Source of the DNA: Crambe crambe
Lineage: Eukaryota > Porifera > Demospongiae > Poecilosclerida > Crambeidae
DNA: 64,000 nucleotides
Reading direction: 5' to 3'
Assembly: GCA_963924555.1 (NCBI GenBank)
Contig: OZ004590.1
Coordinates: forward strand, 5,448,001 to 5,512,000
A program made the translations under genes and the position numbers. This document shows, in pieces, positions 45,096-52,031 of this stretch (position 1 is the stretch's first letter; every line of letters begins with the position of its first letter). Below the pieces are notes generated by a model that was given only the letters and a program-made list of their open reading frames with translations, made no database searches and was not told the DNA's origin.

Positions 45096-46415
45096 TTACT
45101 TGCTAAATAACCTGTATCTTTTCAGCATTAGTTGATCGATACCATTTGTGAATATGTGGTTTAGCACCAGGTAGAAGGTAATCACAAGGGGGTAATATTT
45201 CCAGTAGAATGAATTAGTCATAAAGCTATAGCTCAGATAGAGGATGATTATTAACCAAGTGAAGAGAACTTTTTTCATATCTTTGAATTTTTCCTTCATG
45301 GCTGCCTCACTCAAATACTTAGAAGAAAACTTATTATTTTTGTAGAATTTTTTCAGCTGGCTCTCTTTCTTCTCCCAACATTTCCCTAGCCATTGAGCAA
45401 TACTTTTTTCATCTTCAGGTATATCCACTGAAGCTACTTGCTCAGCAAAGAAGTGAATTTCAGTTGGCCAATTTCCTCCCGATATGTCGCTCTCATTCTG
45501 AGGCATAGTTCCAATATAACCCACAGAAATATTCACCACAGTAGGAGGGATTTTCCCCTTTCTTAACTCTTGAAGACAAAGGGAGAAACCCTTTGTCCTG
45601 GGATGTAGAACATAATCATACTTCTGTAGACCATTTTCATTGGCATAACGATGGCTCTTCTCCCTATTGGAAGGGGAGAGGTCTGTACCCTCAGGGAAAA
45701 AGAGCAGCTGGATGGGATAGTCAGTCTCCATAAAGTATGACAGACTGTCCTTTATCTGTTTTTCATCCACAGCCCACTTACGTGAAAGGAATATGAACTG
45801 TACTGACTGCATCGCCCAACCTAAAGATCAGAGATATGGCTGGCCTGCTCCAGAACTTAATTTTGATCAACCACTAACCAACAATAGGAATATTCTTAAG
45901 TGACTCCTTCAAAACAATCTTGAGCTTCTGGACGTCACCCATTCTCAGGAGATAACACCAAAGGAACATCCAGTCGAACCGTGTCCTGTGGTTCATGATC
46001 AACAGACATGGCCCTGTCAGTTTCTTCAAGTCACCACATATCTTGACCTTTACACCAAAGATGACCTCTGTATTAAGAATGAAAACACTTGGATGATTTC
46101 GGGTGATCTGTCCACAGATAGAAACTCTTCCTGTTTTCTATTTATAATCTGTTCATATAGCCATCCATACTCACCAAATAATCCCTGTAAAGTTTAGGTT
46201 CATTATATTTTATGACGTGGAAAAATAAAATAAAAAGCACCAACCGGAACTAGGATGAAAAAAGTGCTGATATAGGAAGTGTGGGCCTTTCTTGATAAGA
46301 AGACTCCATAGGGGAGTAGCAGAAGAAGCAAACAAAACGGAAGGAGGACCATCCCGAAGTAAAACACCGCTGAAACCGCTAGGAGAAAGAAAAACCCTTT
46401 CATCTTTGGAGACAT
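45096..46415 (-). CDS. LCLAT1-like: Lysocardiolipin acyltransferase 1-like (AGPAT family)
   Basis: Membrane acyltransferase of lysophospholipid/cardiolipin remodelling at the ER. ATG at 46415 (MSPKMKGFFFLLAVS...), strongly hydrophobic N-terminus. Catalytic motif NHRTRFDWMFLW (NHx4D, about 45985) and motif III FPEGTDLSPSN (about 45690). HPRTKGFSLCLQELR follows. Two hydrophobic segments near the C-terminus (FTWLIIILYLSYSF and YYPLVITFYLVLNHIF) match the LCLAT1 layout better than AGPAT1/2. Four or so exons. The first 15 codons and 38 bp upstream are contained in an 84-bp block that is perfectly duplicated 165 bp upstream, creating a second possible start at 46580. Confidence 0.9.
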
Positions 46416-46440
46416 GGCCGGCTGGATCGTGGAATAAACC

Positions 46441-46451
46441 GGGGACTTTCC
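46441..46451 (+). promoter_or_regulatory. kappaB-type site 1 (GGGGACTTTCC)
   Basis: Exact match to the classical NF-kappaB decamer GGGACTTTCC plus one leading G, 26 bp upstream of the LCLAT1 ATG on the opposite strand. Confidence 0.55.
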
Positions 46452-46605
46452 CTATTATTATTTTTGCGACCCCGGCCGGCCGCGCCCCACGTCACGTACC
46501 TGGCACCATAGATATAAGATGTTTAATCTTATATCTGAAACCGCTAGGAGAAAGAAAAACCCTTTCATCTTTGGAGACATGGCCGGCTGGATCGTGGAAT
46601 AAACC

Positions 46606-46616
46606 GGGGACTTTCC
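46606..46616 (+). promoter_or_regulatory. kappaB-type site 2 (GGGGACTTTCC)
   Basis: Second copy, carried by the 84-bp duplication, 287 bp upstream of the TPR-CHAT start codon. Confidence 0.55.
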
Positions 46617-46726
46617 CTTTAATGTAAAACCTCTTATATATATCTATGCTGGCACCTAGCTACGCGCGCACAATTACAATTATATTCATCACTAGCACGC
46701 GCTGAGCTGAGAAGTGCTGACGCAGT

Positions 46727-46752
46727 TTCCCCCAGGGACTTTCCTGGGGGAT
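46727..46752 (+). promoter_or_regulatory. kappaB-type site 3 inside a palindrome
   Basis: GGGACTTTCC at 46735-46744 sits in CCCCCAGG-GACTTT-CCTGGGGG, an 8-bp inverted repeat with a six-base centre. This site is outside the duplication, so it arose independently. It is about 160 bp upstream of the TPR-CHAT ATG. Confidence 0.55.
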
Positions 46753-46902: not shown

Positions 46903-49900
46903 ATGTTGCAACAAGAAAGCCAAACAGATTATATCTGTGATGACAAACCTTGTGTTACCTCATCAGGAAGAGTCTTAAGCCCAAATTATCATCCAACTCT
47001 AATATCTGGTTCCAACCGCTCTGATTTCAAGGTAATTTTGCCGAAATCACACTCTGAAGAAGGTTTGCTCCCATCACAAGTATCTCTAGACCATGAAATA
47101 CTTGAAAGAGTACCAGGCTCCACTTCTCCAAGTTCTTCTGATGGGTGTAGAGATGCTGCCAGTAAAACGATGGAGTGTGATGATCAACTTCCACACACTG
47201 GATCCAGCAGGGATATGCCGGCTGACTATGGTCCAGTGAGCCCTTCTTATCAGCCACAGACTGGGAGTGGCTCTACACAACAACAACATCAAGAGATGGT
47301 GATGAGCATGAATCTGTCGTCAGGAGCAACAGGGATAGGTAACTGGAGTGTAGTATCTAAGTCAATGCAAGAGTTCACACAACCTACTTTATCACACAGT
47401 ATTGCTATGCCTCACTCAAAACCCCGCCATAGGTTATCACCTCAATTAACAGAGCATAGTGGCAAGACTGAGAATCTCACCAACTCCTCACTAGGTACAC
47501 CCCACCATAGATTATCGCCTCTCTCAGCAGAGCAGAGTAGCAGTAAGCCTGCTAGATCTTATCAAAGTGAGCCTGACTTCCTAGCTGTTAAGTCGGCCTC
47601 TGATTGCCTTCATGCTCAAGACTATATCAGAATGATAGTTGTTCTCAGTAGAGAGAGGCCAAGCATTGCAGTCCACTTCGGAAGAGGCTTAGCCTATTAC
47701 AAGCTCAAGAAGCACCAGGAAGCAATTCAGAACTTTACAAGCATGGACCAGCTTACTTCCATGGATCTGTCAGAGAATGCCAATGTGTACCTTGCTCACT
47801 ATTACCTAGCTGAAATTGATTTTTCCTGCAATCGATACCGCAATGCTGCAAAGCATTACCACAAGGCCTCAAGGGCATATTCAACAGAAACAGTGGCTAA
47901 ACGTTACCGGATAGTGCAGCCAACGTTAGCTATCATTCATTCTAAGCAGGGCTCGGCTCTGAGACACGCCCAGCTGATCATGGAAGCAGTGAAGGCGTAC
48001 AAAGCAGCTCTGAATGTGGCAGAGAGCAAGAAGGATCAACTTACAGCTTACACCTCTCTGGGCAACCTCTATCAGAGCCTGGGCGAGAATTCCACTGCTT
48101 TGATCCAATATGAACATACAATTGTTCTAGCCGAAGAGCTCCATGACTATGTATCACTTGGCTGGGCATACGGTAACATGGGAAACGCCTATCTTGGTCA
48201 ATATCAAAAGGATAAAGCACTCCGTCATCTAGAAAAATCTCTTGAACTTACTATAGAGCACGAACCAACGCCACAAGCCATAGGAAGAGCTTATAATAAT
48301 CTGGGGACTGCATATCAGAGTCTAAATGAGTTGGAAAAGGCACACGAGTACTACGATTTGGCCCTCAGTCAAGCAATCTATGGCAGTGACATGGGAGGTC
48401 AAGCTCGAGTGTATGGCAATTTCGGGAACTTGCTGATGATCCAGAAAAAGCTGGAACCGGCCATTGTGCATTATTCCGAAGCGCTGGCCATCAGTACCGA
48501 CCGTTCCACCAGATCCACAGCTCACCACAACAGAGGGTGTGCTTACTACGAGAAAGCTGAAAATGACAAGAAGAAATTTCTCAAAATTGAGAAACCTGTC
48601 AAGGATGATGATTTCCCGATCACTTATACTGGACCAGGTATGAATGGACAACCTCGAGACCCATCTCTGACTGATTCTGTGAAGAAAGGGTATGAAAATG
48701 GACGTGATGATCTCTCGAAGGTTGTTGAGTTCCATGAGGAGACATTCCAAACCATGAAAGGATCATCACATGGTCTCAGCCTGTCTGTTTCTCTCTTTGA
48801 AACCAATTCCAGGTCTTTCCATCGTCTGCAGGATTGTCTCTTCAACCTTGGTCAGTGGGAGAATGCCATGGAGTTTGCCGAACAGAGCAGAGCTCGTACT
48901 CTTGGGGAACTGCTGCTGCAGCGAAAAAGTGGACAGCTTCGCAGGGAACTTACCTCCCCTCTCAAGTTTGAGCAGATCAAGAACATCATTGAATCCATAG
49001 ACACTATTGTTGTCTACATATCCTTCACCGGAGCTCGTCTTCTCACCTGGGTCTTTGTCCCAACCAGAGAGGGAAAAATAGTCAAGGCTATGTTTCAGGT
49101 CAGTCTAGAAGACGACCAGTTTGAAGGGAAATCACTGGATTACTTCCTCCGTTATTTGCTTGCGGATCAACTTATCGAAAACACCGTCGAGATGTATTCC
49201 TATTGTACCTATGACGAATCCCAGCCTCTCTCAAAGCTCTACAAACTCTTTGGTGAGCCTCTGTTGAAGATTCTGAACGAATTCAGTGATAATCGAGTTA
49301 GCACAAAGGATATTATTTTGATCCCCGATAGCTACACAAATCTCATCCCAGTTGTTGCTCTCCTTAATGCCACCTCCAAGAAATTCCTGGGAGATAAGTT
49401 TTATTTTCGTATCATGCCCTCTCTCCTCACTCTTGGCATCCTCAGTCAGTTCTCAGAGGTCAGAGTCAGAGTTCCCGAGGAAAGTCAGAACTTCTGTGTT
49501 GTTGGGAACCCAACTATCCCCAGCTTCAAGTACCAGGAAGAGACTTGGAATTTGGGGAAACTTCCATTTGCCACTCAAGAAGCAGAAGCCGTGGCTCACA
49601 TTATCAAGTGTAATCCCACCTTGCATGAGCAAGCCACCAAAGCGGTGGTCCTCAGCATGATCTCAGCTGCTAAAGTTGTCCATCTTGCAACCCATGGCAG
49701 TGCCGCTTCGGGCTTTCTGGCATTTGCAGGTCTGGGCTCCAGTAGGAGTAGAACCGTATCGGACGAGAAACTCATCCTGCTCTATCCTGAAGACATTGAG
49801 AAGCTAAGTATCAATCCCGCTCTCGTTGTTCTCTCCAGTTGTGATTCTGGACGTGGGAATGTGAAAGCTGATGGGATCCAAGGTATGGCAAGGGCGTTCA

Positions 49901-52031
49901 TCCTTGCTGGGGCACAATCAGTCCTTACCACCCTGTGGAGAGTGCCAGACGAAAGTGCAGCCATCTTCATGCAGTTCTTTTACCAGTACATGATGGATGG
50001 GTTCAAGAGTTCACATGCTTTACATAAAGCCATGTTGAGTATGAGAAGTTTCAAGAAATATTCAAGATACATTCACTGGAGTGGTTACCAGTTGACTGGG
50101 AGGGACGTGCAGTTCTGTATTTCAGAAACCGCTTCCATTGAAAGAATCCGTACTAGAATGGGACCGAGTCCTGTATTTCCCCGACTGGACGTTGTGAAAT
50201 CTCTGGAAAAATCCTTCGTAAAAGACCCTTATCTCCCAGCTGATGTTCAGGTGAGTAATGTATGATTGATCGTCAGATATCCCATACCTCTGTAAATTGA
50301 CCAGCTCTAGCTTTGGCTCCAGTTCTGTGCATCTGGTATTTTGGTTTTCCCCTGGTATTTTCCCTTCCATCTGGTTTTCCCCTGGTGTTTCCCCTTCCTA
50401 TACATTGCTGACGCAAGCTTCCAATTAACCTGACCTCTATACATAAGCTTCCTGACTTCAGGTTCTTTATCCAGTTCAAAGTGAAATCAGGGGTCAGGGG
50501 TCAATTAGTCTATAAATTTATTTTTTATACACTTAAAATAGATCATTCATCCCTTTTCCTCTTTTGGTTCCAAATTATGCAGGTCATTGTCGGAATCCCA
50601 GGATTGGAGCCTTTGGAACCAGTCATTGAGTTTGTTAGTAACAACCACCAGCACTTCACAGGTGGAATCTTCTTCATCAACACTCAAAATGAACACCTCA
50701 TGAAGGCAACGGAAGAAGCCATCAAAGAGGTAAGATTTGCAAAGTTAGCATGTTTACATTCATACGGTATGTTCGCCAAGCACAAAATTATGTTTGCTAA
50801 GCATCTTGGTTACCAGGGTACATCATTAGTACTGTAAGGTACATCATTAATGAGTTATGTTCTGCACACACAAAATTGTGAATTAAATCATTTTCTATGA
50901 AAATAAGTGTTGAATTAAATCATTTTCTTATTATTGCAGGAACTAATAGGGACTCCCTCCTCCAGAGAACAGCCTACTTTGTTTATTTTTGACAACCTGC
51001 TCCAGCTGCCTTCAGACTCCTCCTACTTTTATCACTGCCTTTGCCAGAGCAATGCTCACATCATCTTACTACTGGATGTGGACATCAACAGGTTTCCCCT
51101 CGACAGCCTCAAGAGAGATATTGAGTGCAAGCTCTTGAGGGGATGCAATGTGACCAACTTGGAGCCGCTTCAAACTGTTCAATCCACTCAGAGGATAGTG
51201 CATGGCATCGTTGGCAGGAGTGAGTTTGCCCCCTACAATAGAGAACAGGAGATTCTTGCAGACATCGCTGAGAGAACGTGCGGTTCTCCTGATTTGGTGG
51301 GAGTGGTCTCTTCATTGCTCTCAAAGTATATTGATAGTGAAGAGGAAGGATTATCAGACAGTGAAGGATTTCTTGAAAGATTTTATAAAGATGTCTGCTC
51401 TCATGCCGACTATTTGAAGGAAGATGAAACAAATACCTCTTCAACTAAATATGATTTTGCTGCTCGGATGATCAGCACTTTCAATCTCTCCAAAACCGAT
51501 CACTTTTTGTTAGCTACACTTTCATTATTTGGAAATGTGCCCATTCCCCGTGGCCTCATCGAGAGAATTGAACTCATGGCCATCATGGCTTCCTCTGAAC
51601 CCCCTCGTCAATGTCGTCCAATGACCAGTCTCATATCTGCTAATCTCCTCCATATCTGTCCTTCTCCTGTCATTCAATCACCTAGCAAACATGATACACA
51701 CTTGACACACATCTCCACTTCAATAGCATCTAAATCGGCAAGGATCTCCTCAACTGAACCACGATTTTATTACGTCACTAAGCTTATTAGTAAAACTGTG
51801 CGTCTCTCCATGAATAAGAAAGATAAAATATTTTCTCTAACAGCAGCTCACCGCTCTCTGTCTCAGTTTTGTGAGGGATACAGTGAAGAAAGCAGGTCTA
51901 ACTTTTTAATGGCTGGTTATGCTAAGATCATTCATGATGTATTACAAACTGTTATTGATCCTGAACAAGTAGAAGAATTAAACTGCTACAAGGAAGCTTA
52001 TAGAACTTATTTAAAATTGCAACTTATGTAA
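46903..52031 (+). CDS. TPR-CHAT caspase-like protein with degenerate STAND-type module
   Basis: Three exons (46903-50250, 50583-50729, 50940-52031), in frame, 1528 residues. N-terminal 220 residues are Ser/Pro/Gln-rich. Tetratricopeptide repeats follow (about 230-560; e.g. AYGNMGNAYLGQYQKDKALRHLEKSL). A CHAT domain (about 680-1090) keeps the caspase-like dyad: His931 in HLATHGS and Cys980 in LSSCDSG, then GIQGMARAFILAGAQSVLTTLW. CHAT is the clan CD peptidase domain of bacterial TPR-CHAT and animal TTC28-like proteins. Exons 2-3 look like a STAND/NB-ARC ATPase remnant: VIVGIPGLEPLEPV stands where a P-loop GxPGxGK[ST] is expected, then HFTGGIFFIN and a Walker-B-like TLFIFDNLLQL. Nucleotide binding is therefore probably lost. 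Predicted intracellular protease or scaffold; substrate unknown. Divergent from LCLAT1. Confidence 0.85.

Follow-up and report, generated by a model that had tools for sequence, protein, structure and literature searches.

A sponge TPR-CHAT gene with a putative inactive STAND module at its C-terminus

Described TPR-CHAT proteases and inactive STANDs

Animal proteins that combine tetratricopeptide repeats (TPRs) with a CHAT domain, including TTC28 and coral expansions, have already been described (PMC12314368, PMC9145168; these and the other papers are cited from the portions available to us). The gene reported here lies in a stretch of 64,000 nucleotides of the sponge Crambe crambe (GenBank assembly GCA_963924555.1, contig OZ004590.1, positions 5,448,001 to 5,512,000), which we call the window and whose numbering we use. 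Like the metazoan proteins, it presents N-terminal TPRs and then one CHAT. Those proteins are described in the available text as ending in CHAT, whereas the window gene adds a nucleoside triphosphatase (NTPase)-like module (PMC12314368, PMC9145168). A preliminary description of the window had likened the TPR, CHAT and STAND-like parts of this animal protein to prokaryotic defence and programmed-death architectures. In the open-access literature available to us we found animal TPR-CHATs and bacterial inactive STANDs, but not their fusion in an animal. The TPR-CHAT part in an animal, however, was already known (PMC12314368).

Csx29, from type III-E CRISPR, is an ATP-independent TPR-CHAT protease that is allosterically activated through its TPRs. 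It is of the same TPR-CHAT cysteine protease type as the window gene, with a His and Cys dyad, but its partner is the RNA-guided Cas7-11 and it has no STAND module (PMC10028731). In fungi, TPR-CHAT and CHAT-NLR proteases adjoin gasdermin genes, and one fungal gasdermin is activated by a CHAT protease that bears TPRs (PMC12881547). What they have in common with the window gene is a CHAT accompanied by TPRs or by an NLR module, and the fungal proteins are involved in cell death. The fungal NLR type carries its protease at the N-terminus ahead of the NLR module (PMC12881547), whereas the order here is TPR, CHAT, inactive STAND, which is not the NLR order of effector, NTPase and C-terminal repeats.

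Bacterial inactive STAND (iSTAND) proteins of MoxR-vWA ternary systems can bear N-terminal caspase-like peptidases (PMC7159879). Inactive STANDs have been proposed to retain nucleic-acid binding, and iSTANDs are thought to sense invaders (PMC8195603, PMC7159879). Their likeness to the window gene is one of architecture, an inactive STAND that is sometimes behind a caspase-like peptidase. They differ in being bacterial and in having MoxR and vWA partners, and the available portions of these papers make no mention of a TPR-CHAT fusion (PMC7159879, PMC8195603).

Gene structure and the protease part

The window gene (copy A) lies on the forward strand and has three exons with standard splice sites, two phase-0 introns and 1528 codons before the stop. 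Exon 1 (46903..50250) is a single open frame of 1116 codons with a GTGAGT donor, and encodes an N-terminal region without a recognised domain, the TPRs and the CHAT. Exon 2 (50583..50729; CAG acceptor, GTAAGA donor) has 49 codons and, in the NB-ARC register given by hhalign, holds a degenerate P-loop (GIPGLEPL replacing GxxGxGK[ST]) and the next strand. Exon 3 (50940..52031; CAG acceptor) would encode the remaining inactive NB-ARC/STAND module and the C-terminus, with the Walker B Asp1183, a lost sensor 1, the GxP Pro1282, a winged-helix-like part and a lost MHD as landmarks.

Used as a query in the 143-Mb genome, exon 3 matched two further loci besides itself among the matches listed (at least two). 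These paralogs, B (L014) and C (L015), lie in tandem on one contig, with about 8 kb between them. Each presents TPR-CHAT, then a 49-codon exon and an exon-3-like exon, with the same phase-0 junctions as A. Since this three-exon structure is common to the three paralogs, it supports the joining of exon 1 to exons 2-3. The splicing proposed in the preliminary description is thus borne out by conservation, not by transcripts. An in-frame ATG just 5' of exon 2 in the window gene would suit a separate gene made of exons 2-3 and unjoined to CHAT. However, exon 2 of B comes immediately after a stop codon, and in C the stretch from the last stop to exon 2 contains no ATG; in both paralogs, exon 2 can therefore be read by splicing only. 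The identical junctions in three copies also argue against a separate gene, which we consider highly improbable.

The best-scoring TPR stretch covers residues 462-489 and around (approximately 48280..48380; over the protein, Pfam TPR_1 E 1.1e-22 and TPR_12 1.5e-20). N-terminal of the TPRs, the Pfam search found no domain, including no Death-like domain. The CHAT domain (residues 775-1066; 49225..50100) matched PF12770 with E 5.6e-51 and 174.1 bits, far above the curated cut-off of 24 bits. The PDB CHAT chain 8rot_B matched at E 3e-5, in an alignment that pairs both the LATHG and the Cys motif. By motif position in the CHAT alignment, both dyad residues are present: His931 (codon 49693..49695) and Cys980 (codon 49840..49842). 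Thus, the intact CHAT behind TPRs of the preliminary description holds, and the sequence suggests that the protein is plausibly an active protease.

The dyad aligned with H and C in six of six bacterial CHATs and in nine of the ten other CHAT loci listed for this genome. The exception (L020, G000:C19:6458000-6467500) has a TTC28-like TPR array and, unlike the window gene, has lost the dyad: its CHAT is without both residues (HLAIN, LSAG), the sole such case among the CHAT loci listed (at least 11). Because of this gene, CHAT domains evidently persist without catalysis, and vertebrate TTC28 has been tied to the cell cycle (PMC9145168). The window protein could likewise be a TTC28-type scaffold without proteolytic activity, its dyad kept by chance or for structure. 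Nevertheless, A, B and C all conserve the dyad and its neighbouring motifs, which also agree with those of bacterial CHATs, and we find such a scaffold quite improbable.

A probable divergent NB-ARC/STAND module

Judging from profile comparison, the C-terminus is very probably a divergent NB-ARC/STAND homolog. The resemblance of exons 2-3 to this family, noted in the preliminary description, came out well above controls. The three-copy C-terminus scored 55.9 in hhalign against 17 bacterial NB-ARCs (E 6.1e-7, probability 92%) and 71.8 against 26 NB-ARCs (E 1.8e-9, probability 96%, 276 columns), E-values being those of single comparisons. The 26 references were the 17 bacterial sequences (17 of 18 loci; L046 was dropped for having no in-frame P-loop) and nine from the sponge genome (9 of 19 loci, after exclusion of near copies, of NACHT-like loci and of a locus lacking a P-loop). 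The bacterial NB-ARCs were added after the own-genome comparison came out negative, and significance appeared only then.

Against the same 26 references, 200 column-shuffled and 200 block-shuffled controls reached a maximum of 30.9, and the reversed profile 19.2. As single sequences, A, B and C scored 46.8, 47.8 and 48.3. None of 148 other protein windows reached 46.8: the top one (40.5) was an ABC ATPase whose P-loop is genuine, and the remaining 147 stayed at or below 29.4. Other parts of the same proteins scored at most 24.4. As positive controls against the bacterial set, canonical NB-ARC pairs of this genome scored 156-162 and a NACHT-like pair 76.6. The best single reference was L047, a metallophosphatase-NB-ARC-TPR protein (47.3).

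A hidden Markov model (HMM) of the 26 canonical NB-ARCs, with the family excluded, put exon 2 of C at the top of 477 open reading frames (ORFs) and that of B next (E 0.0016 and 0.026), and listed exon 3 of B at E 0.98 and of C at 0.82. The HMM of the three C-termini found nothing below E 0.036 outside the family among 281 ORFs of this genome, NB-ARC genes included. The viral contigs searched with the C-terminus gave nothing. Two other candidates were rejected: RTTN_N, a Pfam match in the C-terminus of B (E 0.05) below its cut-off, where A gave no Pfam match at all, and two RelE-type toxin chains in the PDB profile search of the C-terminus (E 1), taken as chance.

Motif positions were read in the hhalign register, which is least certain for the MHD, near the alignment end. 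The P-loop stretch is GIPGLEPLEP at residues 1120-1129 in A and GAPGIKPSGI in both paralogs, placing EPL, KPS and KPS (A, B and C) at the Gly-Lys-Thr/Ser positions of GxxGxGK[ST]. That 26 of 26 references have the P-loop carries no meaning, because they were chosen for it. The sensor-1 Arg (R in 23/26 references) is replaced by D, K and K, and the MHD His (H in 22/26) by T, P and P. The Walker B Asp1183 (26/26) and the GxP Pro1282 (P in 20/26) are kept in A, B and C. Since all three copies carry other residues where the P-loop Lys, sensor-1 Arg and MHD His would be, we read the module as an inactive STAND. The preliminary description had seen the broken P-loop and a seeming loss of ATP switching; the two further replacements extend this view.

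Identity between A and B is lower in exons 2-3 (33.5%) than in CHAT (56.7%) and TPR (60.8%), and retention of intron 1 would yield a TPR-CHAT protein stopping a few codons on. Both would be expected if the module were a role-less remnant being lost, with TPR-CHAT working alone. Yet the reading frame and intron positions are kept in three copies, two of them deeply diverged, and the structural motif positions are retained while the catalytic ones are replaced. Moreover, B and C differ in exons 2-3 by 11 synonymous and 14 nonsynonymous changes over 300 and 1002 sites, a nonsynonymous to synonymous ratio (pN/pS) of 0.38 (Fisher p 0.027, B-C pair only). In the same pair, pN/pS was 0.26 in CHAT (p 1.1e-8) and 0.80 in the linker between CHAT and exons 2-3 (p 0.75). 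These values point modestly to purifying selection on the inactive STAND module, and a remnant seems distinctly unlikely to us. Synonymous divergence (dS) between B and C is 0.04 in exons 2-3 and 0.16 in TPR and CHAT; this lower value suggests that the C-terminal part of the pair underwent gene conversion.

Several results weigh against a protease joined to a functional inactive STAND. Neither Pfam nor NCBIfam detected an NTPase in the C-terminus at E up to 10, and no curated NB-ARC/STAND model matched. Profiles of NB-ARC (10 sequences) and NACHT-like proteins (five) from this genome alone gave non-significant hhalign E-values of 0.13 and 0.24, although the former alignment already placed GxPG at the P-loop and TLxxxD at Walker B. 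Among the 26 single references, L047 alone scored above 29. Copy A's own exon 2 was missing from the hits of the canonical NB-ARC HMM at E up to 1 (477 ORFs), and AlphaFold modelled exon 3 alone with a predicted local distance difference test (pLDDT) score of 41 and a predicted TM score (pTM) of 0.27. The selection estimate comes from one pair of copies. Finally, gasdermin, a candidate substrate, had no match in the genome at E up to 1, in an exon-by-exon search that could miss one.

Genomic context and possible role

At the genome level, we found at least 11 CHAT loci, and the C-terminal module follows CHAT in three of those listed. In stretches of 5.5 to 9.5 kb around the other eight, a family-inclusive profile found no convincing C-terminal module (best E 0.11 among 477 ORFs and 0.034 among 68 ORFs). 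Compared with the CHATs of A, B and C, four cyanobacterial TPR-CHATs scored 138-167 bits, a gene on contig C20 90, the TTC28-like gene on C19 69, and six SGT-like genes 32-52. The CHAT region of the cyanobacterial plasmid proteins, which share the TPR-CHAT architecture with the window gene, is about 31% identical across 98% of the query. Bacterial CHAT proteins end 0-41 residues past CHAT in 19 of 20 rows and 47 in one, whereas A continues for about 440 residues more. In the CHAT tree, A, B and C were joined at 100/100 and the six SGT-like genes set apart. A group of A-B-C with the C19 and C20 genes and the cyanobacterial CHATs received 80/86 with long branches flagged, and is weakly supported. 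Horizontal transfer of CHAT from cyanobacteria was not retained as an explanation: the bit scores suggest closeness, but the tree leaves the group unresolved. The phages searched had no CHAT match.

The six SGT-like genes (L017, L069, L018, L019, L068 and L021; contigs C6 and C8) represent another type of CHAT gene, with an SGT-like TPR or related region upstream of CHAT in L017, L018 and L019. Within them are two near-identical pairs, separated by about 137 kb and 94 kb. Elsewhere, seven NB-ARC genes with intact P-loops are clustered within 38 kb (G000:C9:1395722-1433706), and the genome holds 46 caspase-family matches. On two cyanobacterial plasmids (L042, L066), the TPR-CHAT gene adjoins a gene whose annotation reads caspase family or peptidase C14.

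Upstream of the window gene, GGGACTTTCC occurs at 46442, 46607 and 46735 (46735..46744, forward strand), lying 461, 296 and 168 bases from the ATG. The preliminary description had proposed immune or stress induction through these kappaB sites, which our results do not support. The first two belong to an exact 84-bp direct repeat (46370..46453 and 46535..46618), so that one duplication accounts for two of the three exact sites. It also carries the 5' end of the coding region of the divergent neighbouring gene, which we take to be acyltransferase-like. Genome-wide, GGGGACTTTCC occurs 31 times against 58 for the reversed control pattern, with no enrichment. The upstream 2308 (B) and 1961 (C) bases have no GGGACTTTCC; each has one degenerate match, GGGGAATTCC (115 and 240 bases from the first ATG), as many as chance would give. 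A kappaB promoter as a family trait was therefore rejected. The genome encodes a Rel-homology protein, which like the caspase-family matches is in keeping with an animal, and kappaB control of the window gene itself is possible.

At the functional level, we suggest that the product may be a cytosolic TPR-CHAT cysteine protease whose C-terminal NB-ARC/STAND module has ceased to use ATP, a proposal to which we give about an even chance. By analogy with Csx29, the TPR superhelix would hold CHAT inactive and the TPRs would relay ligand or partner binding to its active site. The CHAT protease would be regulated by the inactive STAND module, which could serve as a nucleotide-independent platform for docking, oligomerisation or sensing; most likely, such a platform restrains or places the protease. 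Once activated, the protease would cleave a substrate belonging to a pathway of stress, defence or cell death.

Another reading gives the inactive STAND itself the sensor role, with nucleic-acid binding activating the CHAT protease. It draws on the nucleic-acid binding proposed as retained by inactive STANDs (PMC8195603), and on bacterial caspase-like peptidases N-terminal to an iSTAND, an order identical in the window gene (PMC7159879). The MoxR or vWA partner of those systems is, however, not applicable in an animal, and we judge a direct nucleic-acid sensor fairly unlikely. A related proposal, which we hold to be unlikely, would place the gene beside the bacterial peptidase-iSTAND proteins as their animal equivalent, with an inactive STAND that senses nucleic acid or another ligand without ATP and licenses cleavage by TPR-CHAT. 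If true, the gene would encode an animal receptor derived from a STAND protein, with a built-in protease and with nucleotide switching completely abandoned.

Both halves are known elsewhere; the new element is the fusion of TPR-CHAT with an inactive STAND in an animal, which could be widespread among sponges or exist in public records without annotation. A conserved animal gene in which a plausibly active protease adjoins an inactive STAND would offer a well-defined case for testing how a STAND works when its nucleotide switch is gone, and the fusion would directly link animal and bacterial peptidase-STAND proteins in architecture.

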